DNA of 64,000 nt from Sulfurovum sp. TSL6 (GTDB lineage: Bacteria; Campylobacterota; Campylobacteria; Campylobacterales; Sulfurovaceae). Position numbers and translations under genes: made by a program. Below the pieces are notes generated by a model. It did no database searches. It was not told the origin of the DNA and saw only the letters and a list, made by a program, of their open reading frames with translations. Location: positions 372,001 through 436,000 of the forward strand of contig NZ_BPFJ01000003.1 of assembly GCF_019972115.1 (NCBI RefSeq), read 5' to 3'. Numbering within the stretch: position 1 is the stretch's first letter; every line of letters begins with the position of its first letter. This document shows, piece by piece, positions 22,082 through 38,975 of this stretch.

Positions 22082-22549
22082 TTAATCCCCAACAGGTATA
22101 TACGCATACCCTTCATTCTGTTTGTCTATCAACCCTATCGTTGAAGTAGGGATGATCTTTACAAAGTCATAGATATCTTTTTTTTCTAGACCATGTTTAT
22201 GTAAGCCTACTCCGCATACTAGAAACTCAACATCATAGGTGCTGGCCAGGGTTTCAATACGTTTTCCCAGATCTTGATGTGTAGAAACCAATGCTTTGTC
22301 ATCCTTGTATTCACTGTTTGCAGGGTCTTTTAGAAAGAACCTGTAGGCACCGCCATGGATGACAACTGTCACATCTAGCTCGCGCAAGGTACTTTCATAA
22401 TGTACTTTATTTGTGACGGTAGCACTTAATATACGCAGTTCAAAATTCTTCAGATCTTTGGTAGTTAAATCATATACCACTTTGGCAGAATCCTCTTGTG
22501 CGTATAGTATGCCTAGACTTAAGAGTAGACTGCAGATAATTTTTTTCAT
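22082..22549 (-). CDS. Exported DsrE-family protein (first of three)
   Basis: The 155-residue protein has a clear signal peptide (residues 1-17, ending LYAQE) and a DsrE/DsrF/TusD-like fold with a cysteine at position 112 in EFLVCGVGLHKHG, the place of the persulfide-carrying Cys of the family. Exported DsrE proteins are often found beside sulfur-oxidation genes. It is transcribed divergently from the cache/regulator/kinase operon, and its upstream region contains the direct-repeat promoter motif described at 22577-22608. Paralogues lie at 27324 and 35517. Confidence 0.82.
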   Translation of the reverse strand: MKKIICSLLLSLGILYAQEDSAKVVYDLTTKDLKNFELRILSATVTNKVHYESTLRELDVTVVIHGGAYRFFLKDPANSEYKDDKALVSTHQDLGKRIETLASTYDVEFLVCGVGLHKHGLEKKDIYDFVKIIPTSTIGLIDKQNEGYAYIPVGD

Positions 22550-22576: not shown

Positions 22577-22608
22577 AGGATACCGTTATAATATAAAAAA
22601 AATGTAAA
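22577..22608 (-). promoter_or_regulatory. Direct-repeat promoter of the first dsrE gene
   Basis: On the minus strand TTTACA (22608-22603), five bases, TTTATA (22597-22592), nine bases, then TATCCT (22582-22577) as a weak -10. Half-sites are 11 bp apart, as expected for two monomers of an OmpR-class regulator. The same spacing occurs before three other units of the sulfur island. The site also overlaps the start region of the divergent regulatory operon. Confidence 0.6.
22587..22592 (+). promoter_or_regulatory. -10 box (TATAAT) of the cache/regulator/kinase operon
   Basis: Perfect TATAAT 40 bases before the ATG at 22633. The direct repeat on the other strand (22592-22608) covers the expected transcription start, which would allow autoregulation. 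Confidence 0.5.
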
Positions 22609-22632
22609 CACTAAGGAATAGGATCCAACTTT

Positions 22633-23769
22633 ATGCGTGCAAAATTAAAATCATGTACCCCTTCAAAATACATCAGTAAAATAGCGGCCTATATAACGTT
22701 TGGTGTATTGATGATTCTTTTTGTCTCGGTTTTTTTCTTTGTGAAACAAAGTAAAGAAGACAGACTCATCAGTTTGGGTGATCATATAGTCAGTGATTTT
22801 AGAGCAGGACTTGACTATGAGATGGTCGATCTGCTTTCATTGTCTTTGGCACTCTCTGAAGATGGCGAACTTAAAAATGCACTTACTGCCGAAGATGAGT
22901 CTCAAGGCTATCGCATCCTAAGTAAGATCACAGAACGGTTTAAAAAATATACACATGTAAAAACTTTGCGTATCCAAGTACTTACCCCAGATTTTTTCAT
23001 TTTCGCACGTAGTTGGGATGAAGGGTATGAAGGGATGCCCATTTGGTGGTTTAGAGATGATCTGGCTTCTTTAAATAAGAACAGCCGTCCAAAAGTAGGG
23101 ATGGAAACCGGTAGGTTACTTACTTTGAAAGCAACGATACCTATACGCAGTGGAGATAAAGTACTTGGCTACCTCGAAGTGATTAAGTTTATTGATGAGT
23201 TTACAGTGAAGTTACGTCAAAAAGGCATAGAACTTTTTGCACTGATGGATGAGGAATATCTGGAAAAAGCTGAACTGATGCGGAATTTTCCCTTGTTGAA
23301 TGGATATATTGTTTCCAATCAAAATTATAATCAACAATATATGGATAAAATAGAAATGTTAGATTGGGAAAGTTTTTTACTCAATAATTATGGATATGAA
23401 GACGGTATTCTTTATTTGCATGAACCTATGTTGAATGGAGAAGGAAAACAGATCGGTATGTACTTATTGTGTATTCCGGAGGATGCACTGAAACAACATG
23501 AAAAAACAAGCCAAAGTATGTCGATCTTCACACAGTTTTCAGATGCAGATATTAAGAATGTGGTGGATGCCTGGAAGGCTCCACATGACAGTTTTCGTAA
23601 TCATTATGACAAGGAGATCATAGGGATATTACCAAAGTTGAACGAAGAAGATAAGAAAGAACTTGAAATAGAAGCAAAACGACTACTGTATGACTATAGC
23701 AAAGATGAACTTATTGATATCATTCTGGATAATAAGCATAATGAAAAAAAGACAGGGATTGTCAAATGA
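22633..23769 (+). CDS. Membrane-anchored cache-domain sensor protein
   Basis: The 378-residue protein has one N-terminal transmembrane helix (about residues 18-38) and then a long extracytoplasmic region with double-cache character (FFIFARSWDEGYEGMPIWWFRDDLA, then LKATIPIRSGDKVLGYLEV). No second membrane helix and no kinase, methyl-accepting or cyclase domain is present, so it is a stand-alone periplasmic ligand sensor with a helical C-terminal tail. It overlaps the response regulator by four bases and is co-transcribed with a histidine kinase, forming a probable three-component system. Confidence 0.8.
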   Translation: MRAKLKSCTPSKYISKIAAYITFGVLMILFVSVFFFVKQSKEDRLISLGDHIVSDFRAGLDYEMVDLLSLSLALSEDGELKNALTAEDESQGYRILSKITERFKKYTHVKTLRIQVLTPDFFIFARSWDEGYEGMPIWWFRDDLASLNKNSRPKVGMETGRLLTLKATIPIRSGDKVLGYLEVIKFIDEFTVKLRQKGIELFALMDEEYLEKAELMRNFPLLNGYIVSNQNYNQQYMDKIEMLDWESFLLNNYGYEDGILYLHEPMLNGEGKQIGMYLLCIPEDALKQHEKTSQSMSIFTQFSDADIKNVVDAWKAPHDSFRNHYDKEIIGILPKLNEEDKKELEIEAKRLLYDYSKDELIDIILDNKHNEKKTGIVK

Positions 23770-24425
23770 AAATACTAATTTTAGAAGATGAAAGAATACT
23801 TGCGTTAAGTATGAGAGAATTTTTAGAAGAGAGTGGTTATGAGGTTGAATCTTTTACAGATTCTGATGCAGCATATGATGCTATTTATGATAATGTCTAT
23901 GATCTATTGCTTCTGGATGTGAAAGTACCTGGTGAAAAAAATGGTTTTGAGATGTTGGAGGAGTTACGTGAAGATGGCAATATAACACCGGCTATCTTCA
24001 TTACCTCGCTAACGGATATAGATGATCTAAGCCGCGGGTATGAGTGTGGTGCCTGTGATTATATACGGAAACCTTTTGACCTTGCAGAACTGAAATTACG
24101 TGTGGAGCAGGTGATGAAAGTACAATGTTTTGCTTCACCTGAAGAAAGTATAGAGTTGCCATCAGGATATAATTATGATCTCAAAAAAATGAAGCTTACT
24201 TTTAATGGTGAAACTGTATATCTTGCTAAGACAGAGACAAAGATATTAGAGCTTCTTATCAAGAAAAGAGGTTCTGTGGTGAGTTGTGAAATGTTTTGGG
24301 AAGAGGTATGGGGAGAGTGGGTAGATTCTGCCAATATTCGTGTCCAAGTAGGTAATTTGCGTAAAAAACTTGAAAAAGATTTCATAAAAAATGTACGTGG
24401 CGTAGGGTACAGCATTGATTTTTAA
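23766..24425 (+). CDS. OmpR-family response regulator of the sulfur island
   Basis: Receiver domain (residues 1-115) with acidic EDE near the start, phospho-acceptor Asp in LLLLDVKVPG and Lys in YIRKPFDL; C-terminal winged helix ending VRGVGYSIDF, the OmpR/PhoB class. Start overlaps the cache gene by four bases, and its end overlaps the kinase start. It is the best candidate to bind the TTTACA direct repeats before the porin, sox, DUF302 and dsrE genes. Confidence 0.9.
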   Translation: MKILILEDERILALSMREFLEESGYEVESFTDSDAAYDAIYDNVYDLLLLDVKVPGEKNGFEMLEELREDGNITPAIFITSLTDIDDLSRGYECGACDYIRKPFDLAELKLRVEQVMKVQCFASPEESIELPSGYNYDLKKMKLTFNGETVYLAKTETKILELLIKKRGSVVSCEMFWEEVWGEWVDSANIRVQVGNLRKKLEKDFIKNVRGVGYSIDF

Positions 24426-25560
24426 TACCCAAGAGTTTGCCCGTAAATATGCATTGTTCTATACGGGGATATTGGCTGTTTTACTGATAGCGCCATTGGT
24501 GGTCTATGTCCAATTGCTTTTACAGATAGATGAAGCCAAAGTGAAACTCTCTCTTGAGTCACAAGCAAAAAAGATCATCACTTCTATGCAGCAGTATCAA
24601 AATGAAGATCAAGTCTACCATTTCCCACGCTATAAAGAGTATAAAGCAGCACTCTATACAGATCAGTATGAAGTTGTATTTTCAAATTTAGAGTTTGAAC
24701 CTTTGTCCTTTACGGAAGGTTTTCATCAAAAAAGAAATCGTTATTATTATGTCTATCCCCTTCCTGATGCCTATTATTTTGGTGCAAACTATTTACTGGT
24801 CTCTACGGTGCATACGGCCAATAATATTTACTTTTTTGCCGCGATGATCATGATCGCTATTGTGATCGCTTTATTCATATTTTCATTTTTATTGCTTAGA
24901 AATTTTTCAAGACCTTTTGAAAAACTCAATGAACAGCTTGATAACTTTATTAAAGATTCTATGCATGAGATCAATACTCCTTTGAGTATCATTAACTTGA
25001 ATTCTGATCTTTTTGCTAGTAAATATGGTGAAAATAAATACTTGTTGCGTATGAAGTCTGCTGCAAAAACGCTTGCCACTATTTACAATGATATGGATTA
25101 TCTTGTGAAAGAGGGTAGGGTAGCGCATAAAAAGAGCGTCTTGGACTTTAGTGAATTTATTCAAAATAGAGTAGATTATTTTCAAGAAATTGCAAACCTT
25201 AAGCAGATACAACTTGATACAAATATTCTTCCCGGACTCACACATACATTTTCAAAAACGAAACTGCAGCGTATTGTTGACAATACAATTTCAAATGCGA
25301 TCAAATACAGCAATGACGACAGCCATGTTGAGATCAATGTATATACGATCGATGCACATATCGTTTTTGAAGTCATAGATTATGGTGTGGGTATAAAGGA
25401 CACCAGTAAAATATTTTCACGATATTATAGAGAGAATGAAGCCAAGGGTGGCTTTGGTATAGGATTGAATATCGTAAAGAAAATTATAGATGAAGAAGAT
25501 ATTCTTCTGGAAATCAAATCTGCATTGGGGGAAGGTGCAAGATTCCGCTATACCTTTTAG
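24415..25560 (+). CDS. Sensor histidine kinase of the sulfur island
   Basis: Two transmembrane helices (about residues 12-35 and 137-160) flank a periplasmic region of about 100 residues rich in Tyr. The DHp phospho-acceptor His lies in DSMHEINTPLSIIN, followed by an HATPase domain (N-box NTISNAIKYS, G-boxes DYGVGIK and GFGIGLNIV). The start is TTG at 24415, overlapping the regulator by 11 bases. Together with the cache protein it would sense a sulfur-related signal, which is an inference from location. Confidence 0.88.
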   Translation: MIFNTQEFARKYALFYTGILAVLLIAPLVVYVQLLLQIDEAKVKLSLESQAKKIITSMQQYQNEDQVYHFPRYKEYKAALYTDQYEVVFSNLEFEPLSFTEGFHQKRNRYYYVYPLPDAYYFGANYLLVSTVHTANNIYFFAAMIMIAIVIALFIFSFLLLRNFSRPFEKLNEQLDNFIKDSMHEINTPLSIINLNSDLFASKYGENKYLLRMKSAAKTLATIYNDMDYLVKEGRVAHKKSVLDFSEFIQNRVDYFQEIANLKQIQLDTNILPGLTHTFSKTKLQRIVDNTISNAIKYSNDDSHVEINVYTIDAHIVFEVIDYGVGIKDTSKIFSRYYRENEAKGGFGIGLNIVKKIIDEEDILLEIKSALGEGARFRYTF

Positions 25561-25836
25561 ACTATCTCTCCTATTATATATTTATTATATTAAAAATATA
25601 TTAATATATAAATTAAAATTATAATAAATTTATTAATATAATTAAATATATTACATATACGAATAATATAGACCGATGAAGCCAAATTTTCTTTTTAGAT
25701 AACCAAAAACACTGTTATACTGGCCATTAATGATGAAAAACATTTTATTTTATTTGATTCATTTTTGGAAAAAATACGATTTTTATTATCATTTTTCCAT
25801 GATATAAATATATTTTATACTAAATAATAAGTTATT
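25561..25836. other. Extremely AT-rich spacer before the porin gene
   Basis: This is the first part of a 337-bp gene-free stretch. From 25573 to about 25670 it is almost purely A and T, with repeated TATTAT/ATTAATATA units, no coding potential and no clear hairpin terminator. Such DNA is likely to be bent or easily melted. The rest of the gap holds the direct-repeat promoter. Confidence 0.6.
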
Positions 25837-25868
25837 TTTACACTTTATTTATACTTCCTAGATACTAT
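25837..25868 (+). promoter_or_regulatory. Direct-repeat promoter of the porin-dsrE operon
   Basis: TTTACA (25837-25842), five bases, TTTATA (25848-25853), nine bases, TACTAT (25863-25868) as -10. Spacing is identical to the motifs before soxX, the DUF302 gene and the first dsrE gene. The ribosome site AAAAAGGACAGG follows just before the ATG. Confidence 0.65.
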
Positions 25869-25897
25869 ATTTCTTGAAATTATAAAAAGGACAGGAA

Positions 25898-27310
25898 ATG
25901 ATTCAAGGAAAAACAAGTGTTTCAAAACGATCTATATTGAAATTTGCTTTGGTCGCACCACTATTATTTAGTGGGGTGGAAGTGAATGCAGCAAACTGGC
26001 TAATGCTTCAAGGTACACAACCAGATATGGTAGCCCCCAAAGGGGTGAAAGTGCCCTATAGAAGCAAGATGCCAAAAGTATGGGGTTTTATTCAAGCCAA
26101 CTACAAGGAAGATTTTGGGGATGTATTTGTAGCGCCAGATGGTAAAAATAAAACACCATTTTCATACCTTAATCCAAATCTAGAAGATCAGAAAGGGTTT
26201 AATGTATTTAGAGCACGACTGGCACTTAGAGGAATGGCTGATAGTGAGAACCTTGTTAACTATTTCTTTATGACAGAATTTGGGAACAGTGCCGTCAATA
26301 ATCTTGCCGGGCATGACGTGGCTACCTATTTTACAGATGCTTCTATTACACTCAAGCATATACCTGGAGCCAAGGTTCGTGTGGGGATGTTTAAGACACC
26401 CGGAAGTGAAGAAGGACTTCAAGCCGTATTCGTCTCTCCTTATATAGAATTTACCACGATGACGAATCACCATCTTCTTGAACGACAGGTCAGTGATGTT
26501 GGTGTTGCACAAACTGGTAAAGCTGCCGGAGGTGCTTCGACAACACATTATACCAGCACAAGTGTAGATAAACCGATTGCGGCATTTAGGGATTCAGGAG
26601 TACAGATATTTGACACGTTCAAACTTCAGGATGACTGGGATGTGAGCTATGCATATATGTATGGTAACGGCACAGGTGTTTCACACAGTAGCTCCAATAA
26701 GCAGGCAACACACTACGGATATCTGGCAGCTGAGAAATCATTTGGCAAAGGTAAAGGGTATTATACAGAAGCGATGAAATTTTTTGTATGGGCACAGGAT
26801 GGTAAACGTTCATTAGATTCATATGACGGAAATGTCACATATGAATCGATTGATGCTAACCGTCAACGCTATGGTATTGGGATGACATATTATCATAATG
26901 GTATACGTTTTGAAGCAGAGTATATGAAGGCAAAAGGGATGATATTTGCCGGTGCAAAAGAGGTGGATACAGATCCGAATCCTTCGGTTCAGGATTGGCA
27001 GTTTCAGTTTGCTACAGGCGATGAAAATGAAGCTGACGGTGGTTATGTGAACTTACAATATGAGATCATACCCAAAAAGTTCGAAGTATTTGGACGTTAT
27101 GACTACTGTGATCGTTTGACCAATGATATAAAGGGTGAACGTCAGTTTAAAACAACTACTCTGGGAGCATCCTATCGATACAGAGGCCCAACACGGATTG
27201 ACTTGAACTATATTATGAAAGATGCAGAAGCACCGGGCAACCCTAATGCACAAAAAGTATTAGACAATATGGGTAATCGAATTGCGGTTCAGATTACGGC
27301 AGCATTTTAA
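25898..27310 (+). CDS. Outer-membrane porin (OprO/OprP-like)
   Basis: The 470-residue protein has a signal peptide (about residues 1-32, ending VEVNAAN) and a beta-barrel pattern with alternating hydrophobic residues to a terminal Phe (QITAAF). The central region NVFRARLALRGMADSENLVNYFFMTEFGN and VRVGMFKTPGSEE resembles phosphate-selective porins of the OprO/OprP family. In this context an anion such as thiosulfate or sulfate is a plausible substrate, which is inference. It is followed after 13 bp by a dsrE gene. Confidence 0.8.
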   Translation: MIQGKTSVSKRSILKFALVAPLLFSGVEVNAANWLMLQGTQPDMVAPKGVKVPYRSKMPKVWGFIQANYKEDFGDVFVAPDGKNKTPFSYLNPNLEDQKGFNVFRARLALRGMADSENLVNYFFMTEFGNSAVNNLAGHDVATYFTDASITLKHIPGAKVRVGMFKTPGSEEGLQAVFVSPYIEFTTMTNHHLLERQVSDVGVAQTGKAAGGASTTHYTSTSVDKPIAAFRDSGVQIFDTFKLQDDWDVSYAYMYGNGTGVSHSSSNKQATHYGYLAAEKSFGKGKGYYTEAMKFFVWAQDGKRSLDSYDGNVTYESIDANRQRYGIGMTYYHNGIRFEAEYMKAKGMIFAGAKEVDTDPNPSVQDWQFQFATGDENEADGGYVNLQYEIIPKKFEVFGRYDYCDRLTNDIKGERQFKTTTLGASYRYRGPTRIDLNYIMKDAEAPGNPNAQKVLDNMGNRIAVQITAAF

Positions 27311-27323
27311 GAAAGGATAAAGA

Positions 27324-27821
27324 ATGAAACAAAAAAAAACCCTATGGATGCTTATGGCACTTATGATGACAGCTACCTTACCGGCATTAGCTAAAGAGAA
27401 GAAAGTTACAAAGATCGTTTATCAATGTGATTTCCCGGATGTAAAGCGTGTGCATCTCATGCTAAATACACTGAACAATGCGGTAAAACATTACCAAAGT
27501 ACATTAGAAGAGTATGAGATAAATGTCGTAGCCCTTGGTCCCTGTCTGCAATATGTGATGAAGGACTTTAAAGATACGGGATTTGAGAAAAAGCCTTATA
27601 TTGAGCATGGTGGACCTGCAGGAAATGGTACTTCGGGACGTATTAAGAGTTTACTCATGACAGCAGGTGACAATATGAAAATTATCGCATGCCAGAATAC
27701 CATGAAGAAGAAAAATGTTAAAGAAGAACAAATGGAAGATTATGCAGAACTAACTCCAGGAGGGATTATTAAAATCATTGATCTTCAGAAAGAGGGAGCT
27801 TCATATATTAAAATAATGTAA
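27324..27821 (+). CDS. Exported DsrE-family protein (second of three)
   Basis: Signal peptide (residues 1-23, ending ALAKEK) and a DsrE-like fold of about 140 residues. The conserved position is Cys123 in KIIACQNTMKKK; extra cysteines at 35 and 74. It is co-transcribed with the porin from a direct-repeat promoter and followed by a hairpin terminator. A role as periplasmic sulfur carrier or binding protein is inferred from the family. Confidence 0.82.
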   Translation: MKQKKTLWMLMALMMTATLPALAKEKKVTKIVYQCDFPDVKRVHLMLNTLNNAVKHYQSTLEEYEINVVALGPCLQYVMKDFKDTGFEKKPYIEHGGPAGNGTSGRIKSLLMTAGDNMKIIACQNTMKKKNVKEEQMEDYAELTPGGIIKIIDLQKEGASYIKIM

Positions 27822-27837
27822 TACTTCTTACTGTAAG

Positions 27838-27868
27838 CATAAACAGGTCAAAGCTGTTTATGTTTTGA
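27838..27868 (+). terminator. Hairpin terminator after porin-dsrE
   Basis: CATAAACAG (27838-27846) and CTGTTTATG (27854-27862) are perfect 9-bp arms around GTCAAAG, followed by TTTTGACCTT. It separates the porin-dsrE unit from soxXYZAB. Confidence 0.75.
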
Positions 27869-28006
27869 CCTTATCTCCAAAACATTATTTAAATCATGAT
27901 TTATAGAGCATTCTCATAAAGTGGTTGTTATCTTTCTTATGAAAAATATTAGCCTTTATAATAATACTTTTTGATTATAAAAGATAATGAAAATATTTTT
28001 ATAAAA

Positions 28007-28038
28007 TTTACACTTTCTTTACATTCCTTAGTTATGAT
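28007..28038 (+). promoter_or_regulatory. Direct-repeat promoter of soxXYZAB
   Basis: TTTACA (28007-28012), five bases, TTTACA (28018-28023), nine bases, TATGAT (28033-28038) as -10. The second half-site takes the place of a -35 box, the layout of class II activation by PhoB/OmpR regulators. The best-preserved copy of the four motifs, with two identical half-sites. Confidence 0.7.
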
Positions 28039-28071
28039 ACTTCCTGAAAAAACAAATTAAAAGGAGTATGA

Positions 28072-28647
28072 ATGCATACAAAGATCAAATGTTTTGCCTA
28101 TGCAACATTGTTTTTATCAGCTTCAGCATCACTATGTGCTGTGGATTTGACAAAAGCATATGATATGCCAGATGCAACAAAGATGATAGAGAAGGATCTA
28201 TTCCCGGCAGCTAAAAAGTACACAATGCCAAAGAGCTGCGATCTCACAGATGCGAATGCAATTGCTAGAGGGAAATTTATGTTCCATAATCTCAATGGAA
28301 AAAAAGCAAAAGCAAATCCACCAGCAGGGTTGGCTAAGTTTGTTGAGAAAAAAGGTAAAGACGGTAAAGTAACAAAAAAGCCAAAACAGTATGGTAACTG
28401 TGTAGCATGTCATGACATTGAAGGTGCAAAAGGTGCAGGAAACATCGGTCCTAGTCTTACAGGATACAAGGAAATGTTCTTGGATACAAAAGTAAGAGAT
28501 GCACAATTTGTTTATCAAAAAATTGCAGATCCTAGAGTGGACAATGCAAATACACATATGACGGTTAATCTTACTACAGGACTCTTTAATGAGCAAGAGA
28601 TTTGTGATTATACTGCGTACGTTGTATCGGAAAAAAAGAAAAAGTAA
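28072..28647 (+). CDS. soxX: Thiosulfate-oxidising c-type cytochrome SoxX
   Basis: Periplasmic monohaem cytochrome, partner of SoxA, that attaches thiosulfate to the SoxY cysteine and takes up the electrons. A signal peptide (residues 1-23, ending LCAVD) precedes a single haem site CVACH (110-114) followed by GNIGPSLTGYKE; a candidate axial Met is in NTHMTVNLT. First gene of soxXYZAB, with AAGGAG before the ATG and a direct-repeat promoter. A lysine-rich stretch ends the protein. Confidence 0.9.
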   Translation: MHTKIKCFAYATLFLSASASLCAVDLTKAYDMPDATKMIEKDLFPAAKKYTMPKSCDLTDANAIARGKFMFHNLNGKKAKANPPAGLAKFVEKKGKDGKVTKKPKQYGNCVACHDIEGAKGAGNIGPSLTGYKEMFLDTKVRDAQFVYQKIADPRVDNANTHMTVNLTTGLFNEQEICDYTAYVVSEKKKK

Positions 28648-28660
28648 AGGAAAATAAAGA

Positions 28661-29128
28661 ATGGAAAGAAGAAATTTTATAAAAAGTATCTGTGCAGCAT
28701 CAGCTGTAGCAGCGACAGTGACACCTTCAGCACTACTTGCGAAAGAAGCACCAAAGGGTGGAAATATATTGAGTTATGATGCTGCTGTAGCAGCTATTAC
28801 AGGTGGGAAAGCGGTAGCAGACAGCGATAAAGTGAAGTTGACAGTACCTGAAATCGCAGAGAATGGTGCCGTTGTACCTGTAAAGGTTGAAGTAGATAAT
28901 CCTATGGAAGAAAGTAATTATGTAAAAGCGATCCATGTACTGAGTACTAAAAATGGTAATGCAAGATGTGCAGATGTCATGCTTACACCACTGAATGGAA
29001 AAGGATATTTTGCAACAAGAGTAAAATTGGGCGGAACACAAGATGTTGTTGCATTGGTAGAGCTTAGCGATGGTACTTTTATGAAATCAGCGAAAAGTGT
29101 TAAAGTAACTATCGGTGGATGTGGTTGA
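28661..29128 (+). CDS. soxY: Sulfur-carrier protein SoxY
   Basis: The C-terminal GGCG (Cys154) is the swinging arm that carries sulfur intermediates in the Sox pathway. The N-terminus has a twin-arginine-type signal (ERRNFIKS then a hydrophobic run to about residue 28), so SoxY is exported folded, probably with SoxZ. The middle (NYVKAIHVLSTKNGNARCADVML) matches SoxY. Thirteen bases after soxX, 108 bases before soxZ. Confidence 0.95.
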   Translation: MERRNFIKSICAASAVAATVTPSALLAKEAPKGGNILSYDAAVAAITGGKAVADSDKVKLTVPEIAENGAVVPVKVEVDNPMEESNYVKAIHVLSTKNGNARCADVMLTPLNGKGYFATRVKLGGTQDVVALVELSDGTFMKSAKSVKVTIGGCG

Positions 29129-29138
29129 TGATATCAAG

Positions 29139-29161
29139 TGATGTTTACATGGAAAACATCA
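29139..29161 (+). other. Stem-loop between soxY and soxZ
   Basis: TGATGTTT (29139-29146) and AAACATCA (29154-29161) form a perfect 8-bp stem with a 7-base loop, just after the soxY stop. No T-run follows, so it is more likely an mRNA processing or 3'-end stabilising element than a strong terminator. Confidence 0.5.
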
Positions 29162-29236
29162 AGATTTAGTAAGAGAGATGGAAAAAGAAAAGATCTTTTT
29201 TCAATAGAAAAAATAATAATTAAAAAAGGATAATAG

Positions 29237-29575
29237 ATGGCAGAAAAAAGAAAATCGATGATTAAAATCAAACCTAAAAAATATAAAACGGGAGATTTGG
29301 TAAAAGTTGATTTTATTGTAATTCACCCGATGGATACAGGTTTACAAAAAGATAAAAAAACTGGAGAGATCATACCAGCACATTTTATCGATAACATTAC
29401 TTTCTCTTTAGATGGTAAACCATTTACAACAATGAAAGTTTGGGAAACTGTTTCAACAAACCCTTATTTCTCTGTAAACCTAAAAGTACCTGGTAAAGGT
29501 AAAATAACGGTTGAGTATACAGACAATACAGGTGAGAAAAATACAAAGAGTAAAAAACTTAAGCCAAAAGGATAA
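29237..29575 (+). CDS. soxZ: Sulfur-carrier partner SoxZ
   Basis: Small immunoglobulin-fold subunit that forms the SoxYZ heterodimer. At 112 residues it has the family pattern: IKPKKYKTGDLVKVDF near the start, HFIDNITFSLDGKPF in the middle and KGKITVEYTDNTGE near the end. No signal peptide; it is expected to leave the cytosol with SoxY by the Tat system. soxA starts three bases after its stop. Confidence 0.95.
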   Translation: MAEKRKSMIKIKPKKYKTGDLVKVDFIVIHPMDTGLQKDKKTGEIIPAHFIDNITFSLDGKPFTTMKVWETVSTNPYFSVNLKVPGKGKITVEYTDNTGEKNTKSKKLKPKG

Positions 29576-29578
29576 GCA

Positions 29579-30355
29579 ATGAAAAGAGTAATATTACCTT
29601 TAGCTCTTTTGGCAACCATGGGAACTGTAACGGTAAATGCCGGTGAGCAGTTCGCTATGAGTGATGCTGATAGAGCCATGTATCAAGAGATGCTAGAAAA
29701 TAATCCCGCTGAAATCTATGTAGAAGAAGGTGGAGAAATTTTTGAAGAAGAATTAGGTGGAGAAGCAGCTTTAGCAAAATTTTTAGGAGTCTCTGAAAAA
29801 GAGTTGCCTAAATACATTGCAGGATTCCCAAGATATATAGCAAAACTTGGTAATGTTGTCGGACTCGATCAAGTGATGCAAGCGATGCAAGTAGAGCAAG
29901 GTAAAGAGAAAACAAAACTCAAATCAGGGAAAATGTTCTCTATGCTTGCTTATGTAAAATCATTAGCAAATGATGAAGTGATCAATATCGATGTGACTGC
30001 AGATGAACACATTAAAGCAGCCTATGCTTTAGGTGAAAAAACCTATATGACTCCAAGAGGGGGAAGAGGTCTTTCATGTAACTCTTGCCATAGTGCAGAT
30101 ATCGTGGGACAAGTACTGAGAACACAGCCACTTCCGGATCTAGGTGACAATAATGTTGCTGGTACATGGCCGGCTTACCGTATGACAAAGTCAAGTCTTA
30201 GAACGACACAAAGAAGATTTCAAGGATGTATGAACAATGCATTGCTTAAAGTTATTCCTATAGGATCTAAAGAGATGAATGCACTCGAAGTATACGTGAC
30301 TAAACTTGCAGCGGATAAGAAAAAGCCAATGGCTATCCCTGGTTTGAAGAGATAA
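29579..30355 (+). CDS. soxA: Thiosulfate-oxidising c-type cytochrome SoxA
   Basis: Signal peptide (residues 1-21) and one covalent haem site CNSCH (167-171); Cys217 in RRFQGCMNN is at the position of the axial, persulfide-type cysteine of SoxA. Only one CxxCH is present, so this is the monohaem SoxA type. With SoxX it forms the SoxAX complex in the periplasm. The second gene boundary is tight: soxB begins nine bases after the stop. Confidence 0.92.
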   Translation: MKRVILPLALLATMGTVTVNAGEQFAMSDADRAMYQEMLENNPAEIYVEEGGEIFEEELGGEAALAKFLGVSEKELPKYIAGFPRYIAKLGNVVGLDQVMQAMQVEQGKEKTKLKSGKMFSMLAYVKSLANDEVINIDVTADEHIKAAYALGEKTYMTPRGGRGLSCNSCHSADIVGQVLRTQPLPDLGDNNVAGTWPAYRMTKSSLRTTQRRFQGCMNNALLKVIPIGSKEMNALEVYVTKLAADKKKPMAIPGLKR

Positions 30356-30364
30356 GGGGATAAA

Positions 30365-32143
30365 ATGGAAATAGATAGACGAGACTTCCTACAGATTGCT
30401 GCATCACTAGGTTTACTAGGGGCAACTGGAGGAACCAATCTTTTTGCTGGTGAAGCCGGTAAAGAGCGTATCAAAAAATTGACTTTTTCTGATATCGTAG
30501 ATTTCAAGCCTAAAGGAAAAGCAACGCTACTTCACATTTGTGATCTGCATGCACACCTTAAGCCACTATACTGGAGAGAACCATCTACACTTATTTCTGC
30601 AAAGAATTTAGTAGGAACACCAGGATTTATTTGTGGAGAGAGTTTCCAAAAATACTATGGTATTGCTCCAGGAAGTTTAGATGCGTACTTTGATACACAC
30701 AATGACTTTACCGAACTTGCTAAAAAGTTTGGAAAAATGGGTGGTATCGCACATATGAAGCCTATTATCGATCATGTGAAAAAAGAGAGAGGTTCAGAGA
30801 ATGTACTTCTTTTAGACAGTGGTGATACATGGCAAGGTACAGCAGTTGCACTCAAAACTGATGGTGAAGCGATCGTAGATGCGCAAAACTATCTGGGTGT
30901 AGATGTGATGGTCGGACACTGGGAATTTACCTATGGTAAAGAGCGTGTTCATGAATTGATCGGTATGCTAAAAGGAGATTTCATTTCCCAAAATGTGATC
31001 GACAATGATCCATTCTCAGATGAGTTTGAAGAGTTGATCTTCCCACCATACTCTATCCAAGAGGTAGGTGGTGCAAAGATAGGTATTATCGGGCAGTCAT
31101 TCCCGTTCACATCTACTGCAAACCCTAAAAAGTTTACAGAAGGTTGGAGTTTCGCTCTTCGTCATGAATCACTGCAAGAGTATGTAAATGAACTTCGTAA
31201 TGAGAAAAAAGTAGATGCAGTGGTTGTATTGAGTCATGATGGATTCTCTGTAGATCAGGAATTGGCTAAAAAAGTGACAGGTGTTGACTTCATTTTAAGT
31301 GGTCACACACACGATCCTAGCCCAGAGCCTATTATTGTGAATGATACAATCATTCTCATTTCAGGAAGTCATGGTAAGTATATTTCAAGACTTGATCTAG
31401 ATATTCAAGATAAAAAAGTCGTTGATTACAGTTATAAACTCATACCTGTAGCTTCAAACCTTATCCCTGCGGATAAAGCGGGAGTTGATTTAGTTGAAAA
31501 ATGGTATAAGCCTTATAATAAAGAGCTCAATGAAGTACTTGGTACTACCAAAGGACTTCTGTATAAAAGAGATACTTTCTACTCAACGTTTGATTCGCTT
31601 ATAGGTATGGCGATTCAAGACGAGATGAAATGTGATATCAACTTTAATCCAGGATATAGATGGGGTACAACAGTACTTCCGGGTGATGACATCTTAAAAG
31701 ACAATGTCTATGAGATGACGGCGATCACATACCCTGAGGTTTATACATTTGACCTCAAAGGTAAAGTGATAGCAAAATTGATGGAAGACATTGCAGATAA
31801 TGTATTTAACGCAAATCCACTTCTGCAACAAGGTGGTGACATGAGTAGAATCACAGGTGCAAGTTATAGCATCAAAATATCTGCTCCATCGGGTAAGCGT
31901 ATTTCTGACTTTATGATAGGTGGAAAGCCTATCGATATGGAAAAAACCTATAGGGTCTCATCATGGGGAGGAAACTTGCAGAATGTAGGTGAAAACCTTG
32001 ATGAAAAAGCGATACGTCCAGTCTATGAGGTGGTCAGTGATTATATTCGTAGACAAAAAGTGATCGACATTCCTATGGAATCTAATGTGAAAGTGTTAGA
32101 TATGGATTGTGGATGTCCGGTCGAAGGTGCTAAGTGTTCATAA
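30365..32143 (+). CDS. soxB: Sulfate thiohydrolase SoxB
   Basis: The 592-residue periplasmic dimanganese enzyme releases sulfate from SoxY-bound thiosulfonate. It has a Tat signal (DRRDFLQIA then a hydrophobic stretch), the metal motif ICDLHAHLKP, LLLDSGDTWQGTA, GHWEFTYG and SGHTHDPSPEP, all of the 5'-nucleotidase-related metallophosphoesterase fold. Last gene of soxXYZAB. No soxC or soxD is present in this window. Confidence 0.96.
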   Translation: MEIDRRDFLQIAASLGLLGATGGTNLFAGEAGKERIKKLTFSDIVDFKPKGKATLLHICDLHAHLKPLYWREPSTLISAKNLVGTPGFICGESFQKYYGIAPGSLDAYFDTHNDFTELAKKFGKMGGIAHMKPIIDHVKKERGSENVLLLDSGDTWQGTAVALKTDGEAIVDAQNYLGVDVMVGHWEFTYGKERVHELIGMLKGDFISQNVIDNDPFSDEFEELIFPPYSIQEVGGAKIGIIGQSFPFTSTANPKKFTEGWSFALRHESLQEYVNELRNEKKVDAVVVLSHDGFSVDQELAKKVTGVDFILSGHTHDPSPEPIIVNDTIILISGSHGKYISRLDLDIQDKKVVDYSYKLIPVASNLIPADKAGVDLVEKWYKPYNKELNEVLGTTKGLLYKRDTFYSTFDSLIGMAIQDEMKCDINFNPGYRWGTTVLPGDDILKDNVYEMTAITYPEVYTFDLKGKVIAKLMEDIADNVFNANPLLQQGGDMSRITGASYSIKISAPSGKRISDFMIGGKPIDMEKTYRVSSWGGNLQNVGENLDEKAIRPVYEVVSDYIRRQKVIDIPMESNVKVLDMDCGCPVEGAKCS

Positions 32144-32153
32144 GTTAGAACCG

Positions 32154-32205
32154 TGCCTCGTCTTTCTATTTGAAATGTTGTAGTCTCCTTTTGAAAGACG
32201 GGGCA
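32154..32205 (+). terminator. Long-stem hairpin after soxB
   Basis: TGCCTCGTCTTTC (32154-32166) pairs with GAAAGACGGGGCA (32193-32205) with one T-G wobble, around a 26-base loop. It lies 11 bases after the soxB stop and has no T-run, so it may stabilise the sox mRNA 3' end. Confidence 0.55.
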
Positions 32206-32210
32206 TTGGA

Positions 32211-32239
32211 AGTTGTGATAAAATCACAACTTTATTATA
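32211..32239 (+). terminator. Rho-independent terminator after soxB
   Basis: AGTTGTGAT (32211-32219) and ATCACAACT (32223-32231) form a perfect 9-bp stem with loop AAA, followed by TTATTATAA. Together with the preceding hairpin it separates soxB from the OprD-like porin gene. Confidence 0.65.
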
Positions 32240-32266
32240 ACACAGTGTTAATAAAGTCATTATGAC
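32238..32266 (+). promoter_or_regulatory. Two small palindromes before the OprD-like porin gene
   Basis: TAACAC-A-GTGTTA (32238-32250) and GTCAT-T-ATGAC (32256-32266) are perfect short dyads 24 to 52 bases before the ATG. They could be operator half-sites of a dimeric regulator. The TTTACA direct repeat is absent here. Confidence 0.35.
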
Positions 32267-32289
32267 AAAAAATAATAAAAGGGGTAAAA

Positions 32290-33816
32290 ATGAACAAGGG
32301 AAGAATAAAAATCAGTTTAGCAGCATCAGTGCTATTATGTATGGGAACATCTGCTATAGCAGGTGGAGACATCGCTCCAGTTGAGCCGGTAGTATCGGTT
32401 AAAAAAGATACACCTAAACGTAAACTCAAAGGTAATATGGTAGTTGAATATAATGTGTTACCGGGAAGCGTAGACAATATCCGTGATATGTTTGGTGAAG
32501 GTATCTTTTACGGAAGACTCAGATCGAATACATTCTATTGGGATTGGGATAATGAGGATTACGGAACAGGCGGAAAGCAAAAAGACAATAAAAACTGGGG
32601 TGTAGGTGGAAGCCTTATCTATAAATCAGCTGTATTGGACGGGTTCAGCTTTACGATGGGCTATTATGGTTCATTAAATCCTGAAATCTTCAGAATGGAT
32701 GACGATGAAGTCGGATTTGCAAAAGCGGGTAAAGATACATTCAGTAGACATAAAGTTGACACAACAGGTGCTTATGGTATGCACGTTCTAGGTCAAGCAT
32801 ACCTTGAATACAACAATGGTACTGTTGATGTGAAAGCTGGACGTCAACTCTTTGAATCTGTCTTTACGGCTTCAAATGACACGAAAATGATACCAAATAC
32901 CTTTGATGGTGTGAGTGTAAGTGCAAAAGTTGCACCAAAAACTACAGCGAGAGTCGCATGGTTTGCTAAACAAAAATTAAGAGACCATGAAAATGCACAT
33001 GATGTGGTTACATTTAAAAATGTAGATGGTGAGAGCTGGGATAATAATGATGATGCGGGGGTTCACAAAGGACTTTCATATGCTAATTTTACAGATCCAG
33101 CTATTAATGAAGACCCGAACCATGATATGTTCCTAGGGGATATCAAGACAAAAGCGATAGACAATCTAGACTTTACGTTAAGTGCTTTAACAGTGCCTGG
33201 TGTAGTGACGGATGTTGTTGGTGAAGCACACTATAGATTTAATCTAGACAATGGTTGGGCAGTAAGACCTGGTGTGAGATATTTCCATCAAATGGATGAT
33301 GGTGGTGGGGAAGTTGCCGGATATACAAATCTGACTGGTAAGGTTGCAACAGGTTATGATGCAGGCGTAGCTACTTCACTTGATAGTAGTCTTTTCTGTG
33401 GAAGAGTTGACCTAGAAATGCCAAACAAAAAAGGTTTCTTTAGACTTGGTTACTCAAAAGTGGCAGATGAAGCAGATATCGTTGCACCATGGAGAGGATT
33501 CCCTACAGGTGGATTTACAAGAGCAATGGCACAGTATAACTGGTATGCAAATACTGAAACATTCATGGCTAGAGCTGTGTATAAGTTCAACTCAACATGG
33601 AAAGCTAGTTTAAGATATGCGATTCAGGATTTTGATGATGCTAAAACAACTATTCAACCTGATAGTAATGTATGGCACTTAGATACTTGGACGAATATCA
33701 CAAAAAGACTTCAAATGAGAACACGTATCGGTTTGGTTGATGCTGATGTTGGTTCAACAGGAAAAACAGATACTTCTTATAATGAATATCGTTTAGAGTT
33801 TAACTACCTCTTCTAG
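32290..33816 (+). CDS. OprD-family outer-membrane porin
   Basis: The 508-residue barrel protein has a signal peptide (residues 1-24, ending AIAGGD), alternating beta-strand pattern and a terminal FNYLF typical of outer-membrane insertion. GIFYGRLRSNTFYWDWD and GMHVLGQAYLEYNNGTVDVKAGRQ match OprD/Campylobacter porins of the Opr family. It begins an apparent operon with a SoxH-like hydrolase, a cytochrome-thioredoxin fusion and a dsrE gene. The substrate is unknown. Confidence 0.82.
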   Translation: MNKGRIKISLAASVLLCMGTSAIAGGDIAPVEPVVSVKKDTPKRKLKGNMVVEYNVLPGSVDNIRDMFGEGIFYGRLRSNTFYWDWDNEDYGTGGKQKDNKNWGVGGSLIYKSAVLDGFSFTMGYYGSLNPEIFRMDDDEVGFAKAGKDTFSRHKVDTTGAYGMHVLGQAYLEYNNGTVDVKAGRQLFESVFTASNDTKMIPNTFDGVSVSAKVAPKTTARVAWFAKQKLRDHENAHDVVTFKNVDGESWDNNDDAGVHKGLSYANFTDPAINEDPNHDMFLGDIKTKAIDNLDFTLSALTVPGVVTDVVGEAHYRFNLDNGWAVRPGVRYFHQMDDGGGEVAGYTNLTGKVATGYDAGVATSLDSSLFCGRVDLEMPNKKGFFRLGYSKVADEADIVAPWRGFPTGGFTRAMAQYNWYANTETFMARAVYKFNSTWKASLRYAIQDFDDAKTTIQPDSNVWHLDTWTNITKRLQMRTRIGLVDADVGSTGKTDTSYNEYRLEFNYLF

Positions 33817-33824
33817 GAGTAAGA

Positions 33825-34742
33825 GTGAAAAGCATCATAGCATTCTGTTTATGTTTATGGACAGCACAGGCGTACGAATATGATTTGACGCCTGTTAAGG
33901 TCTCTGAAAATGTACATTGCTTTTTTGGTGCACTAGAAAATATCACCAAAGAAAACGGTGGTAATATGGTTAATACATGTTTTGTTCAAACAAAACAGGG
34001 GTTTGTTGTCATAGACAGCGGCCCTACTTATGCCTATGCCAAACAGGCATATACGCAAATGCAAAAGATCCAAAACCTCCCTGTAAAGTATGTTATCAAT
34101 ACGCATGATCATGACGACCATTGGTTAGGCAATAGTTTTTATAAAAGCAAAGGCGCTTTGTTGATAGGTCCACGGACGTATGAACAAAATGTAGTTGTGG
34201 GTATGGAAACGCGAATGCAGCGTACTTTAGGCAGTGAAATTTACGCTAAAACAGAGATCGTGGATCTTGACACTATCGTAGATGACGACCTTACACTCAA
34301 TGTCGGAGACAAGACCTTTAAAATTAAACAATTGGTAGCAAAAGCACACACCCAAGGTGATCTTATTGTATACTTACCGAATGAAAAAGTACTATTTGCA
34401 GGAGATCTTGTGTTTAATGGCAGGGTCACGTCTATACGAGATGGTTCAATCATAGGTTCTATCAAGGCATTGGCAAAAATAGATGCACTGCATCCTAATG
34501 TCATCATAGGCGGGCATGGATACAAAACAGATGCCAATGCTACAAAAGCACTCAAAGAATACCTGCTTGAAATGAAAGAAGAGGTACTCGATGCGTTGGA
34601 TAATGACGTCTCTATGGAACAGGTCACTAAAAAAGTAACTATGCCAAAATATAAAGATATGAAACTCTATGATGTGTTGCACAGCCGCAATGTATTTGAA
34701 GCGTATCGAGAACTTGAAATGTATGATGAGGATGAAGAATGA
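33825..34742 (+). CDS. SoxH-like exported metallo-beta-lactamase-fold hydrolase
   Basis: Signal peptide (residues 1-16) followed by an MBL fold: zinc motif THDHDDHWLGN with His94, His96, Asp98 and His99, further ligands in KAHTQGD and the Asp of LFAGDLVF, and GGHGYKT near the C-terminus. Related proteins (SoxH, PqqB-linked hydrolases) occur in sulfur-oxidation operons; the reaction is unknown. The GTG start at 33825 follows the porin by eight bases. The end overlaps the next gene by four bases. Confidence 0.82.
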   Translation: MKSIIAFCLCLWTAQAYEYDLTPVKVSENVHCFFGALENITKENGGNMVNTCFVQTKQGFVVIDSGPTYAYAKQAYTQMQKIQNLPVKYVINTHDHDDHWLGNSFYKSKGALLIGPRTYEQNVVVGMETRMQRTLGSEIYAKTEIVDLDTIVDDDLTLNVGDKTFKIKQLVAKAHTQGDLIVYLPNEKVLFAGDLVFNGRVTSIRDGSIIGSIKALAKIDALHPNVIIGGHGYKTDANATKALKEYLLEMKEEVLDALDNDVSMEQVTKKVTMPKYKDMKLYDVLHSRNVFEAYRELEMYDEDEE

Positions 34743-35506
34743 GAATAGCATTGGCTATGTTAATTTATTTAAATGCACTTTTTGCGATGGAAGGAAAGGA
34801 AGTCTATGAAAAAAAATGTGCTTCTTGTCATCCGGGCTATATCTCTATGTCTAAACTTAAAGAGAATTTTCAAGACTATAACAATACACTCCTGAAGCTT
34901 ACTGCACCCACGTTAAACCAGCTCTCTTATAGATTAAAAAAGAGTATAGGAGATCCTAAAGGTGACAATGAGATACATCGTATGGAAGTGGCAGCATTTA
35001 TCAGTGAGTATGTGCTGCATCCAGACAGACAAAAAAGTCTCTGTTTAGACGAAGTGATGCAGTCTTTTCAAACCATGCCCAGTCTTGAAGGAAAGATCAG
35101 CGAAGAGGAACTTGAAGCAGTAAGTACCTACATTTATGATTTTGATGAGAAGGTCTTAGCAGAGAAAGGTGTACACTATGAAGGCTTCGAAAAAGCATTG
35201 CAAAAAGCAAAGCAAGAGGATAAGATCATTATGCTTAAAGTGATGACGAAAGATTGTTATTTCTGTAGAAAAATGGAGAGAGAAGTAATGATAGAAAAAG
35301 AGATAGTCGAGTTTTTAGAACAGGATTTTATCCCTGTCTCGATCGACATTTCTACGACAGAACTTCCTTTGGGATTACAAACCGAATTGACACCAAGCTT
35401 TATTTTTATAGATAAAAATGCTAAAGTATTATTAAACATACCCGGAGCATGGAATAAGATGGATTTTCTTGACATATTAAGAGAAGCCAAAACGAAACAG
35501 AGGTAA
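34739..35506 (+). CDS. Exported cytochrome c-thioredoxin fusion
   Basis: The 255-residue protein has a signal peptide (residues 1-16), a small c-type cytochrome domain with haem site CASCH (27-31; a possible axial Met in RMEVAAF), and a C-terminal thioredoxin fold with Cys173 and Cys176 in KDCYFCRKM and a cis-Pro in LTPSFIFI. It joins electron transfer and thiol-disulfide chemistry in one periplasmic polypeptide, like SoxW fused to a cytochrome. The start overlaps the SoxH-like gene by four bases. Confidence 0.85.
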   Translation: MRIALAMLIYLNALFAMEGKEVYEKKCASCHPGYISMSKLKENFQDYNNTLLKLTAPTLNQLSYRLKKSIGDPKGDNEIHRMEVAAFISEYVLHPDRQKSLCLDEVMQSFQTMPSLEGKISEEELEAVSTYIYDFDEKVLAEKGVHYEGFEKALQKAKQEDKIIMLKVMTKDCYFCRKMEREVMIEKEIVEFLEQDFIPVSIDISTTELPLGLQTELTPSFIFIDKNAKVLLNIPGAWNKMDFLDILREAKTKQR

Positions 35507-35516
35507 AGGATAAAAG

Positions 35517-35954
35517 ATGAAAAAAATATTGATAGCATTAGCATGTTTACTCAGTTTTACTGTAGCCGAGACAGAGTTCGCAGAACCAAAACCGGCGATA
35601 GACAATCCTAGACAGCTTGTATTTGGTATACCAAGTGGTGAGATCAAAGAGATAAACCGTATTTTAAGCACAGTCAATAATGTCATGAAGTTTTATAGAC
35701 CAGAAAATACGGAAATCGTGATCGTAGCCTATGGACAGGGATTAAAGTCTTTACTTAAAAAAGGTGATGTCGATGTACGGAAACGTATAGAAGCACTCAT
35801 GACCTATGACGTAGAGTTTATTGCGTGCGGAAATACCATGAGAACACTTCATATAGATAAAAAAGATCTGCTTGATGACATAGGATTTGCAACCGCAGGG
35901 ATCGTTGAAATTATAGAAAGACAACTTCAAGGGTACACTTACGCCCAACCCTAA
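35517..35954 (+). CDS. Exported DsrE-family protein (third of three)
   Basis: Signal peptide (residues 1-18) and a DsrE-like fold with Cys104 in EFIACGNTMRTLHI, aligned with Cys112 and Cys123 of the other two copies. It ends the OprD-SoxH-cytochrome/thioredoxin operon, ten bases after the fusion gene. Closer to the copy at 27324 (shared ACxNTM) than to the one at 22082. Confidence 0.83.
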   Translation: MKKILIALACLLSFTVAETEFAEPKPAIDNPRQLVFGIPSGEIKEINRILSTVNNVMKFYRPENTEIVIVAYGQGLKSLLKKGDVDVRKRIEALMTYDVEFIACGNTMRTLHIDKKDLLDDIGFATAGIVEIIERQLQGYTYAQP

Positions 35955-35968
35955 CCTGGATTGAAACT

Positions 35969-36000
35969 TTTACATATTATTTACAGAAGATTGTTATATT
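35969..36000 (+). promoter_or_regulatory. Direct-repeat promoter of the DUF302 gene
   Basis: TTTACA (35969-35974), five bases, TTTACA (35980-35985), nine bases, TATATT (35995-36000) as -10. Same spacing as before soxX and the first porin. AAAAGGAATTC precedes the ATG at 36029. Confidence 0.65.
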
Positions 36001-36028: not shown

Positions 36029-37006
36029 ATGAAATTGTTAATTAAGGGGATGCTTTGCGCATCATTGGTCGTGTCAAGTGTACAGTCTAAAGAATCAATA
36101 AAAGTAGCAGCTAAAGAGCCTACTGCTATGAAAAGTACTGCTGCAGATATAGAAATAATTACTTCAGAAAATGCAGATGGTAAAATCACACCTGCAAGTA
36201 TAGAACAGGCATTTAAAGATGCAGGTTTTGTCATTTCAGCTAATAGGGATATGAATGGCCCTTTTGAGATACAGTTTAAAGAATCAGGTTTTGATATCTA
36301 TAATCTCTTTACACTTTATAAGCCGGATGCCGTTTTGGAACTGGTGAAAAAATACCCGAATGTTGGTCTTTTTGCGCCTATGAGTATGTCTATTTATACT
36401 AAAAAAGGTGAAAAAAAGATTTCAGTCTCTTCTCTCACGGCAGAAGCGATGGCTAAGATCATGAAAGCGCCAAGTGATGACAAAACGTTGCATGACTTAA
36501 GAGCACTTGTCAAACAAACATTAAAAAAGGCAATGCCGAATGGTTCATATGAAACATTACCGTATGTGCAAACAGAGCCAAAAGGTGAGCTTGTTACGAG
36601 TTTTAGTATGGAAATGGATCCGGATGAGTGGGAAGATCAGTTAGATGAATTTAAGATGGGCTTTGAAGGTGAGCTTGCACCTAATGGCTTTGTCATCGCA
36701 GGGCACAATAATTTGGGTGATGACTTTGAAGAATCAAACTATGAAGCATTTAATTTTTATGAAGTCTACTCTGTTTGTAAACTACCGGTGATCTACACTA
36801 TCGCTAAAACAAGACCAGAAGCAGGAGCCTATGCGCCATGTTCACTCTACCTTAGTAAAAAGAAAGATGAAGAGGAGATGCATATAGGATTTCCTTCTGT
36901 CTATAATTGGATGAGCTCTATGGCTATAGAGAGTAAAGAAGATATGGAAGTATTGGAAAAAGCACAGGCAGGTATGAACAAGATATTAACTGGACTCACT
37001 GAGTAA
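36029..37006 (+). CDS. Exported protein with two DUF302-like domains
   Basis: Signal peptide (residues 1-21) followed by two similar halves: about residues 60-165 (VELVKKYPNVGLFAPMSMSIYTKKG in the first) and 200-310 (YEVYSVCKLPVIYTIAKTRPEAGAYAPC in the second), both with the DUF302 pattern. The function of DUF302 is unknown, though such proteins occur beside sulfur-oxidation genes. It has its own direct-repeat promoter, so it appears to belong to the same regulon as sox. Confidence 0.72.
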   Translation: MKLLIKGMLCASLVVSSVQSKESIKVAAKEPTAMKSTAADIEIITSENADGKITPASIEQAFKDAGFVISANRDMNGPFEIQFKESGFDIYNLFTLYKPDAVLELVKKYPNVGLFAPMSMSIYTKKGEKKISVSSLTAEAMAKIMKAPSDDKTLHDLRALVKQTLKKAMPNGSYETLPYVQTEPKGELVTSFSMEMDPDEWEDQLDEFKMGFEGELAPNGFVIAGHNNLGDDFEESNYEAFNFYEVYSVCKLPVIYTIAKTRPEAGAYAPCSLYLSKKKDEEEMHIGFPSVYNWMSSMAIESKEDMEVLEKAQAGMNKILTGLTE

Positions 37007-37251: not shown

Positions 37252-38010
37252 ATGAAATTAGGTTTCTTAGTTGACCTTAACCTATGTATGGGTTGTAAAG
37301 GTTGTGAGATTGCTTGTAAAGTGGAAAATGAAGTTCCATTGAGTACTTGGCGTTTACGTGTTAAATATATAGATTTAGGAACATTCCCGGATACTAGAAG
37401 ATCATTTACACCATTACGTTGTAATCATTGTGAGAATGCGCCATGTGAGCGTATTTGTCCTGTATCGGCATTACATTATTTAGAGAATGGTATTGTAAAT
37501 ATTGATAGTGACAGATGTATCGGTTGTGCTGGTTGTATGATGGCGTGTCCTTATGGAGCGATCTATATGGACCCTGAAACGAACACAGCAGATAAATGTA
37601 CATACTGTGCACACCGTATTGAGAGCGGTATGATGCCAGCATGTGTGGTTGCGTGTCCAGTTGAAGCAAATATCTTTGGTGATATTGAAGATGATCATAG
37701 TCACATTTCACTCTATATTATGGAACATAAAGGTGCTGTTCAAGTACGTAAACCTGAAAAGCATACAAGTCCAACACACTTTTATGTAGGTGGTGGTAAT
37801 GCAACATTGAACCCTCTAGCGCATCAGAGAATTGAAGGATTCAGTCTCTTTAATGATATTACTCACCTAGAACATGTAGGGGATAAAAATCACGGGATCC
37901 TTGATAGATTCTTAGCACCGTTTGCTGGACATCATGGTCCAACAGATAACGCAAGTTTTATTGAATCAGCGATAGATGCTGACTCACACGAACAAGAGGG
38001 AGGTCACTAA
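37252..38010 (+). CDS. Four-cluster Fe-S subunit of a molybdopterin oxidoreductase
   Basis: The 252-residue PsrB/PhsB/TtrB-type protein has four [4Fe-4S] motifs: CMGCKGCEIAC, CNHCENAPCERIC, CIGCAGCMMAC, and CTYC with CVVAC further on. It passes electrons between the catalytic subunit and the membrane anchor. No signal peptide; it should cross the membrane together with the Tat-signalled catalytic subunit. GGAGG precedes the ATG. First gene of a B-C-A operon. The His-rich C-terminal tail (HHGPTDN, HEQEGGH) is not part of the family core. Confidence 0.9.
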   Translation: MKLGFLVDLNLCMGCKGCEIACKVENEVPLSTWRLRVKYIDLGTFPDTRRSFTPLRCNHCENAPCERICPVSALHYLENGIVNIDSDRCIGCAGCMMACPYGAIYMDPETNTADKCTYCAHRIESGMMPACVVACPVEANIFGDIEDDHSHISLYIMEHKGAVQVRKPEKHTSPTHFYVGGGNATLNPLAHQRIEGFSLFNDITHLEHVGDKNHGILDRFLAPFAGHHGPTDNASFIESAIDADSHEQEGGH

Positions 38011-38011
38011 G

Positions 38012-38962: not shown

Positions 38963-38975
38963 GGAGAAGATATCT

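Follow-up and report, generated by a model that had tools for sequence, protein, structure and literature searches.

A conserved direct-repeat promoter element and a sensor-regulator-kinase trio likely to control thiosulfate oxidation in Sulfurovum and other Campylobacterota

Copies of a 32-bp promoter element, TTTACA-N5-TTTAYA-N9-TATNNT, precede four gene units around soxXYZAB in Sulfurovum sp. TSL6. The existence, rarity, deep conservation and rigid spacing of this element, its target set and its co-occurrence with one regulator were computed from the window (the whole 64-kb stretch of DNA analysed, 64,000 nucleotides) and from related genomes. In our preferred reading, to which we give a probability of about 0.78, the OmpR-family response regulator encoded at 23766 binds the four sites and activates soxXYZAB with its downstream genes, dsrE, the porin-dsrE pair and a DUF302 gene, while a Cache protein and a histidine kinase sense the cue. 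Thiosulfate oxidation in the phylum is likely under the control of this trio, which appears not to have been described before. The four sites are as follows:

22577-22608, minus strand: site 1, TTTACA (22603-22608), N5, TTTATA (22592-22597), N9, -10 TATCCT (22577-22582), upstream of the exported DsrE-like gene at 22082-22549 (minus)
25837-25868, plus strand: site 2, TTTACA, N5, TTTATA, N9, -10 TACTAT (25863-25868), upstream of porin-dsrE2 at 25898-27821
28007-28038, plus strand: site 3, TTTACA, N5, TTTACA, N9, -10 TATGAT (28033-28038), upstream of soxXYZAB
35969-36000, plus strand: site 4, TTTACA, N5, TTTACA, N9, -10 TATATT (35995-36000), upstream of the DUF302 gene at 36029-37006

All four 32-base copies had been reported in a first-pass annotation and are present on these strands. 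The pattern given there holds exactly in three of them; the copy at 25837 carries TACTAT, one mismatch to TATNNT. The annotation had also held that the remaining bases differ between copies; it overlooked a shared G that stands two positions ahead of the -10 hexamer in all four (the G of an extended -10). With up to two mismatches allowed, the window contains these four matches and no others; shuffled sequences averaged 0.41 and never reached four. When the window was scored with a matrix built solely from soxX promoters of other families, the four sites took ranks 1-4 (26.9, 24.0, 20.9, and 18.8) and rank 5 scored 2.8; the best score in simulated windows (n = 30) was 12.9 with the same matrix.

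Across the whole 2.25-Mb genome, the motif has 5, 4, and 52 matches at zero, one, and two mismatches, compared with 0, 0.6, and 15 in order-2 Markov genomes; its density thus exceeds that of random DNA, where a similar density would have counted against a regulon. Three of the five exact genome copies fall inside the window, and the TTTACA repeats are almost missing from genomes without a 23766-type regulator. Further exact or one-mismatch copies in the same genome (C1:573760, C1:666011, C1:775373, and C2:558680) are at best lineage-specific; the last lies upstream of a multicopper-oxidase-like gene, which differs from the gene behind a similar site in G026. Separately, sites of the same geometry with the form TTCACA-N5-TTCAYA-N9-TATACT were seen at loci L011 and L023 (G000:C1:148796 and C1:457031), and also at C2:83111 and C1:740613. 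Those at C1:148796 and C1:457031 stand upstream of small exported proteins of the type MKK(F/L)TAILLLTIGLASSAMAHHPAPVDQAGSG, and the TTCACA sites look as if they carried the own hexamer of a paralogous regulator.

The proposed sensory and regulatory genes lie between sites 1 and 2:

22633-23769, plus strand: membrane-anchored double-Cache sensor protein with no kinase domain (Pfam dCache_3 below cut-off; AF2 model)
23766-24425, plus strand: response regulator of the OmpR family, proposed to bind the four sites (Pfam Response_reg and Trans_reg_C)
24415-25560, plus strand: membrane histidine kinase with HisKA and HATPase_c (Pfam; synteny in several families)

The AF2 model of the 22633 protein (pLDDT 77) resembles dCache sensor domains such as that of DctB, and on this predicted fold the protein is classed as a double-Cache sensor. 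The 23766 protein combines a receiver with a winged-helix Trans_reg_C domain, as expected for an OmpR/PhoB-family regulon; D8, the phospho-acceptor D51, and K102 are invariant in the ortholog alignment, so the receiver is intact. Two other features of such regulons are present, namely direct repeats spaced about 11 bp near the -35 position and an adjoining histidine kinase (24415-25560), which is likely cognate to the regulator.

The element is deeply conserved across Campylobacterota families. In relatives, the site recurs in the neighbourhoods of regulator orthologs, mostly upstream of soxX. Congener soxX promoters keep the 32-bp block and a few following bases, with a variable upstream flank; neither the two TTTACA hexamers nor G25 vary in any of the 22 distinct congener sites. 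Both hexamers and the G are again prominent in the soxX promoters of other families (n = 37), where G25 occurs in 33/37; because each of these 37 windows was picked for its fit to the congener matrix, part of their near-invariance reflects selection. The T preceding G25 is common, not invariant. An exact-pattern count, independent of the congener matrix, found TTTAYA-N5-TTTAYA in the upstream regions of soxX (70/78), DUF302 (6/6), porin (3/3), and dsrE1 (11/17) genes. Among these repeat-bearing regions, 63 soxX, 6 DUF302, 3 porin, and 9 dsrE1 cases have a 9-base gap to GnTAnnnT. The 11-bp half-site spacing and 9-base gap noted in the annotation are kept across families, the gap being almost always 9; the 10-base exceptions, partly found by eye, are G120, G238, and G249 of family f6, plus G128. 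The -10 of the element, a sigma70 box of the extended kind in which the G is near-invariant, matches the Campylobacterota sigma70 type, a TGnTATAAT-like -10 without a -35. Two related genomes showed a short GGGCACCTCTAAnAACCC-type element, perhaps a MITE, close to the promoter: in G023 (L137, about 3000-3085, before dsrE) it lies just past the site, and in G361 (L191) between the site and soxX.

The genes behind the four sites are:

22082-22549, minus strand: exported DsrE-like protein (Pfam DsrE), target 1
25898-27821, plus strand: porin-like gene (recognised by sequence appearance alone) and second exported DsrE-like gene (DsrE by Pfam), target 2
28072-32143, plus strand: soxX, soxY, soxZ, soxA, and soxB (NCBIfam equivalogs SoxX, SoxY, SoxA, and SoxB above cut-off; soxZ by position and synteny), target 3
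32290-35954, plus strand: OprD-like porin, SoxH-like metallo-hydrolase, cytochrome/thioredoxin protein, and DsrE-like protein, a probable continuation of the sox transcript
36029-37006, plus strand: DUF302-domain protein (domain match), target 4

With the window's own genome left out, upstream regions were scored by ortholog class at a threshold of at least 10. The threshold was reached by 95% of soxX genes (n = 76), 13/16 dsrE1 genes (81%), 5/5 DUF302 genes, and 3/3 porin genes, by 2/9 mbl genes and 15% of Cache genes, and by 0% of the RR, HK, soxY, soxZ, soxA, soxB, porin2, cytTrx, HK0, and dsrE3 orthologs. In G060, the DUF302-type site and the downstream start occur three times on a single contig in exact 3,883-bp steps (L144:2134, 6017, and 9900), likely a tandem triplication. 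Directly after the DUF302 gene of the window, at 37252-42305, lie genes for an iron-sulfur subunit, an NrfD-type membrane subunit, and a large molybdopterin oxidoreductase, which possibly belong to the same sulfur unit.

From this arrangement, we infer the following mechanism. The 22633 double-Cache protein and the 24415 kinase would sense a cue outside the cytoplasm, probably thiosulfate or one of its products. The phosphorylated 23766 regulator would then sit as a head-to-tail dimer on the pair of TTTACA half-sites, which are spaced by one helical turn (11 bp). The dimer would occupy one face of the DNA from about -38 to -22, replacing the -35 on extended -10 sigma70 promoters, and would contact RNA polymerase at a fixed distance from the -10. 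The predicted outcome is activation of soxXYZAB and its downstream genes, dsrE, porin-dsrE, and the DUF302 gene.

Repression is another role that a site over the -35 position could have, and the regulator might bind the same sites yet chiefly repress when substrate is missing. The half-sites do overlap the -35 region, and the known SoxR-type Sox regulators are repressors (PMC10451225, PMC5748708). We nevertheless consider this unlikely: OmpR/PhoB-family sites so placed are usually activating, and the sites of HP1043 sit just upstream of the -10 (PMC5253667). Moreover, the promoters lack a -35, and the fixed distance to their -10 points to an interaction with the polymerase. None of these arguments is decisive.

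The assignment of the sites to the 23766 regulator draws further support from its distribution. The annotation had proposed this OmpR-class protein as the regulator of the regulon and had called for a scan of related genomes; in 78 congeners, motif, regulator ortholog, and soxX occur together. Ortholog and tightened motif are both present in 35 genomes and both absent in 39, with 2 + 2 discordant cases, whereas the other OmpR-type regulator of the window, the only other regulator tested for co-occurrence, is found in 76/78. Regulator against soxX gave 36/1/1/40 in the congeners and 53/3/19/224 order-wide (299 genomes); the Fisher tests (p about 1e-17 to 1e-39) take no account of phylogeny and are indicative only. 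The discordant cases are explicable: they comprise a genome that is 79% complete (G062), a 48% match without sox (G024), a site with two mismatches (G010), and a match in G006 that is a different sequence, likewise in G009 and G030. At order level, 19 genomes have a regulator relative (cut-off 1e-58) but no soxX, and some of these relatives are probably paralogs. Where soxX occurs without a detectable regulator, the hexamers are degraded (G357), the site is absent (G042), or it is weak (G052); in G357, with no regulator beside soxX, the extended -10 TTGTTATAAT is retained while the TTTACA repeats have decayed. G056 retains the site, with the regulator on another contig.

Within the genus, soxX is hardly ever found without the regulator or the regulator without soxX; co-occurrence there therefore cannot by itself separate a regulator that needs the site from a sox island inherited whole. 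Another DNA-binding protein, co-inherited with the island, might recognise the sites, the more so as the genome has about 22 response-regulator matches and a single other regulator was compared. We regard this as improbable, since it is the 23766 regulator whose synteny with soxX is conserved across families, the order sensor-RR-HK-soxXYZAB recurring in several of them (L137, L139, L140, and others), and 11-bp direct repeats are the kind of site to which OmpR-type proteins bind (PMC5253667).

The second sox cluster provides a comparison. No comparable site was found at the soxCDYZ loci of G015, G023, G026, G028, and G060; the best score, 10.9, came from G023, several kb from soxC and on the opposite strand. 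In the window's own genome, the sole strong site at the soxCDYZ cluster lies about 5 kb upstream of soxC. At L302:711-3446, the region ahead of the soxCD cluster encodes a porin-like protein and another whose N-terminus resembles that of the 36029 DUF302 protein, a parallel to the soxXYZAB island. In published RNA-seq of Sulfurovum indicum, expression of soxABXY1Z1, along with dsrE, soxW, and soxH1, was higher with thiosulfate, and that of soxCDY2 with sulfur (PMC10045233). This expression pattern would fit a site on the soxXYZAB branch only. Finally, we rejected as largely refuted the idea that the motif is merely a general Campylobacterota sigma70 promoter, a periodic A/T-rich upstream region plus an extended -10: C. 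jejuni sigma70 promoters do show such a periodic pattern with TGxTATAAT and no -35 (PMC3656092), and the -10 half of the element is exactly of that type, but the TTTACA repeats are rare in the genome, track the regulator, are absent from the five soxCDYZ loci compared outside the window's own genome, and decay in G357 where the extended -10 is kept.

The site near the genome's own soxCD cluster is an exact motif copy (G000:C3:154-185), located between a 5S rRNA gene and that cluster, and it precedes a candidate small RNA. Within L002:154-470 (G000:C3:154-470), the site is followed by a stretch of about 90 nt with a closed stem, AAAGATAACC...GGTTATCTTTTT, and by a tandem second copy with the promoter TTTACT-N5-TTAACT-N9-TATAAT. 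The arrangement is also found in G070, G075 (twice), and G100. A DNA search returned full-length matches only in four close genomes (five places), the window's own included, and weaker, partial ones elsewhere. The Rfam scan assigned the candidate to no family, with solely rRNA and tRNA above the gathering score. The two-component system may thus also drive a small RNA, an RNA arm beside the protein-level control of the thiosulfate branch, although we put this forward tentatively and think it rather doubtful.

The architecture itself is already known from PhoB and HP1043; what sets the present system apart is its hexamer, its intact phosphorelay, and its targets. In the Pho box, two 11-bp direct repeats replace the -35, and PhoB activates with sigma70. 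PhoB resembles the present case in its two 11-bp repeats at the -35 place; its half-site sequence and targets are different. HP1043 (HsrA) of Helicobacter pylori, from the same phylum, is likewise an OmpR/PhoB-type regulator and recognises TTTAAG-N5-TTTAAG beside the -10, i.e., two hexamers with a 5-bp spacer and centres 11 bp apart directly upstream of the -10 (PMC5253667). However, its hexamer is TTTAAG rather than TTTACA, it is an orphan with a degenerate, phosphorylation-independent receiver, whereas the 23766 regulator keeps its receiver intact and comes with a kinase of its own and a Cache sensor, and unlike HP1043/HsrA the system described here has sulfur-oxidation targets. PceP/PceS of Sulfurospirillum is also a Campylobacterota two-component system with an OmpR-type regulator, one respiratory gene region, and direct repeats at the -35; its repeats are CTATW-N17-CTATW and it serves organohalide respiration (PMC7755780). 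SoxR of the Alphaproteobacteria controls sox genes too, but it is a sulfane-sulfur responsive repressor of the ArsR type, a different protein family from the two-component response regulator here (PMC10451225, PMC5748708); the regulator at the Sulfurovum sox locus is of the OmpR type. In the literature covered, which mostly excludes subscription journals, we found no description of a sox regulator in Campylobacterota, and the regulon appears to be undescribed.

Campylobacterota that oxidise sulfur are dominant in many vents and sulfidic waters, and the known Sox regulators belong to other families. The proposed circuit is specific: a single regulator would act on a small set of targets through one type of 32-bp site. 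It would tie soxXYZAB to functionally uncharacterised proteins of the exported DsrE, porin, and DUF302 kinds, and the distribution of the site offers an explanation for the differing responses of the two sox clusters to thiosulfate and elemental sulfur.
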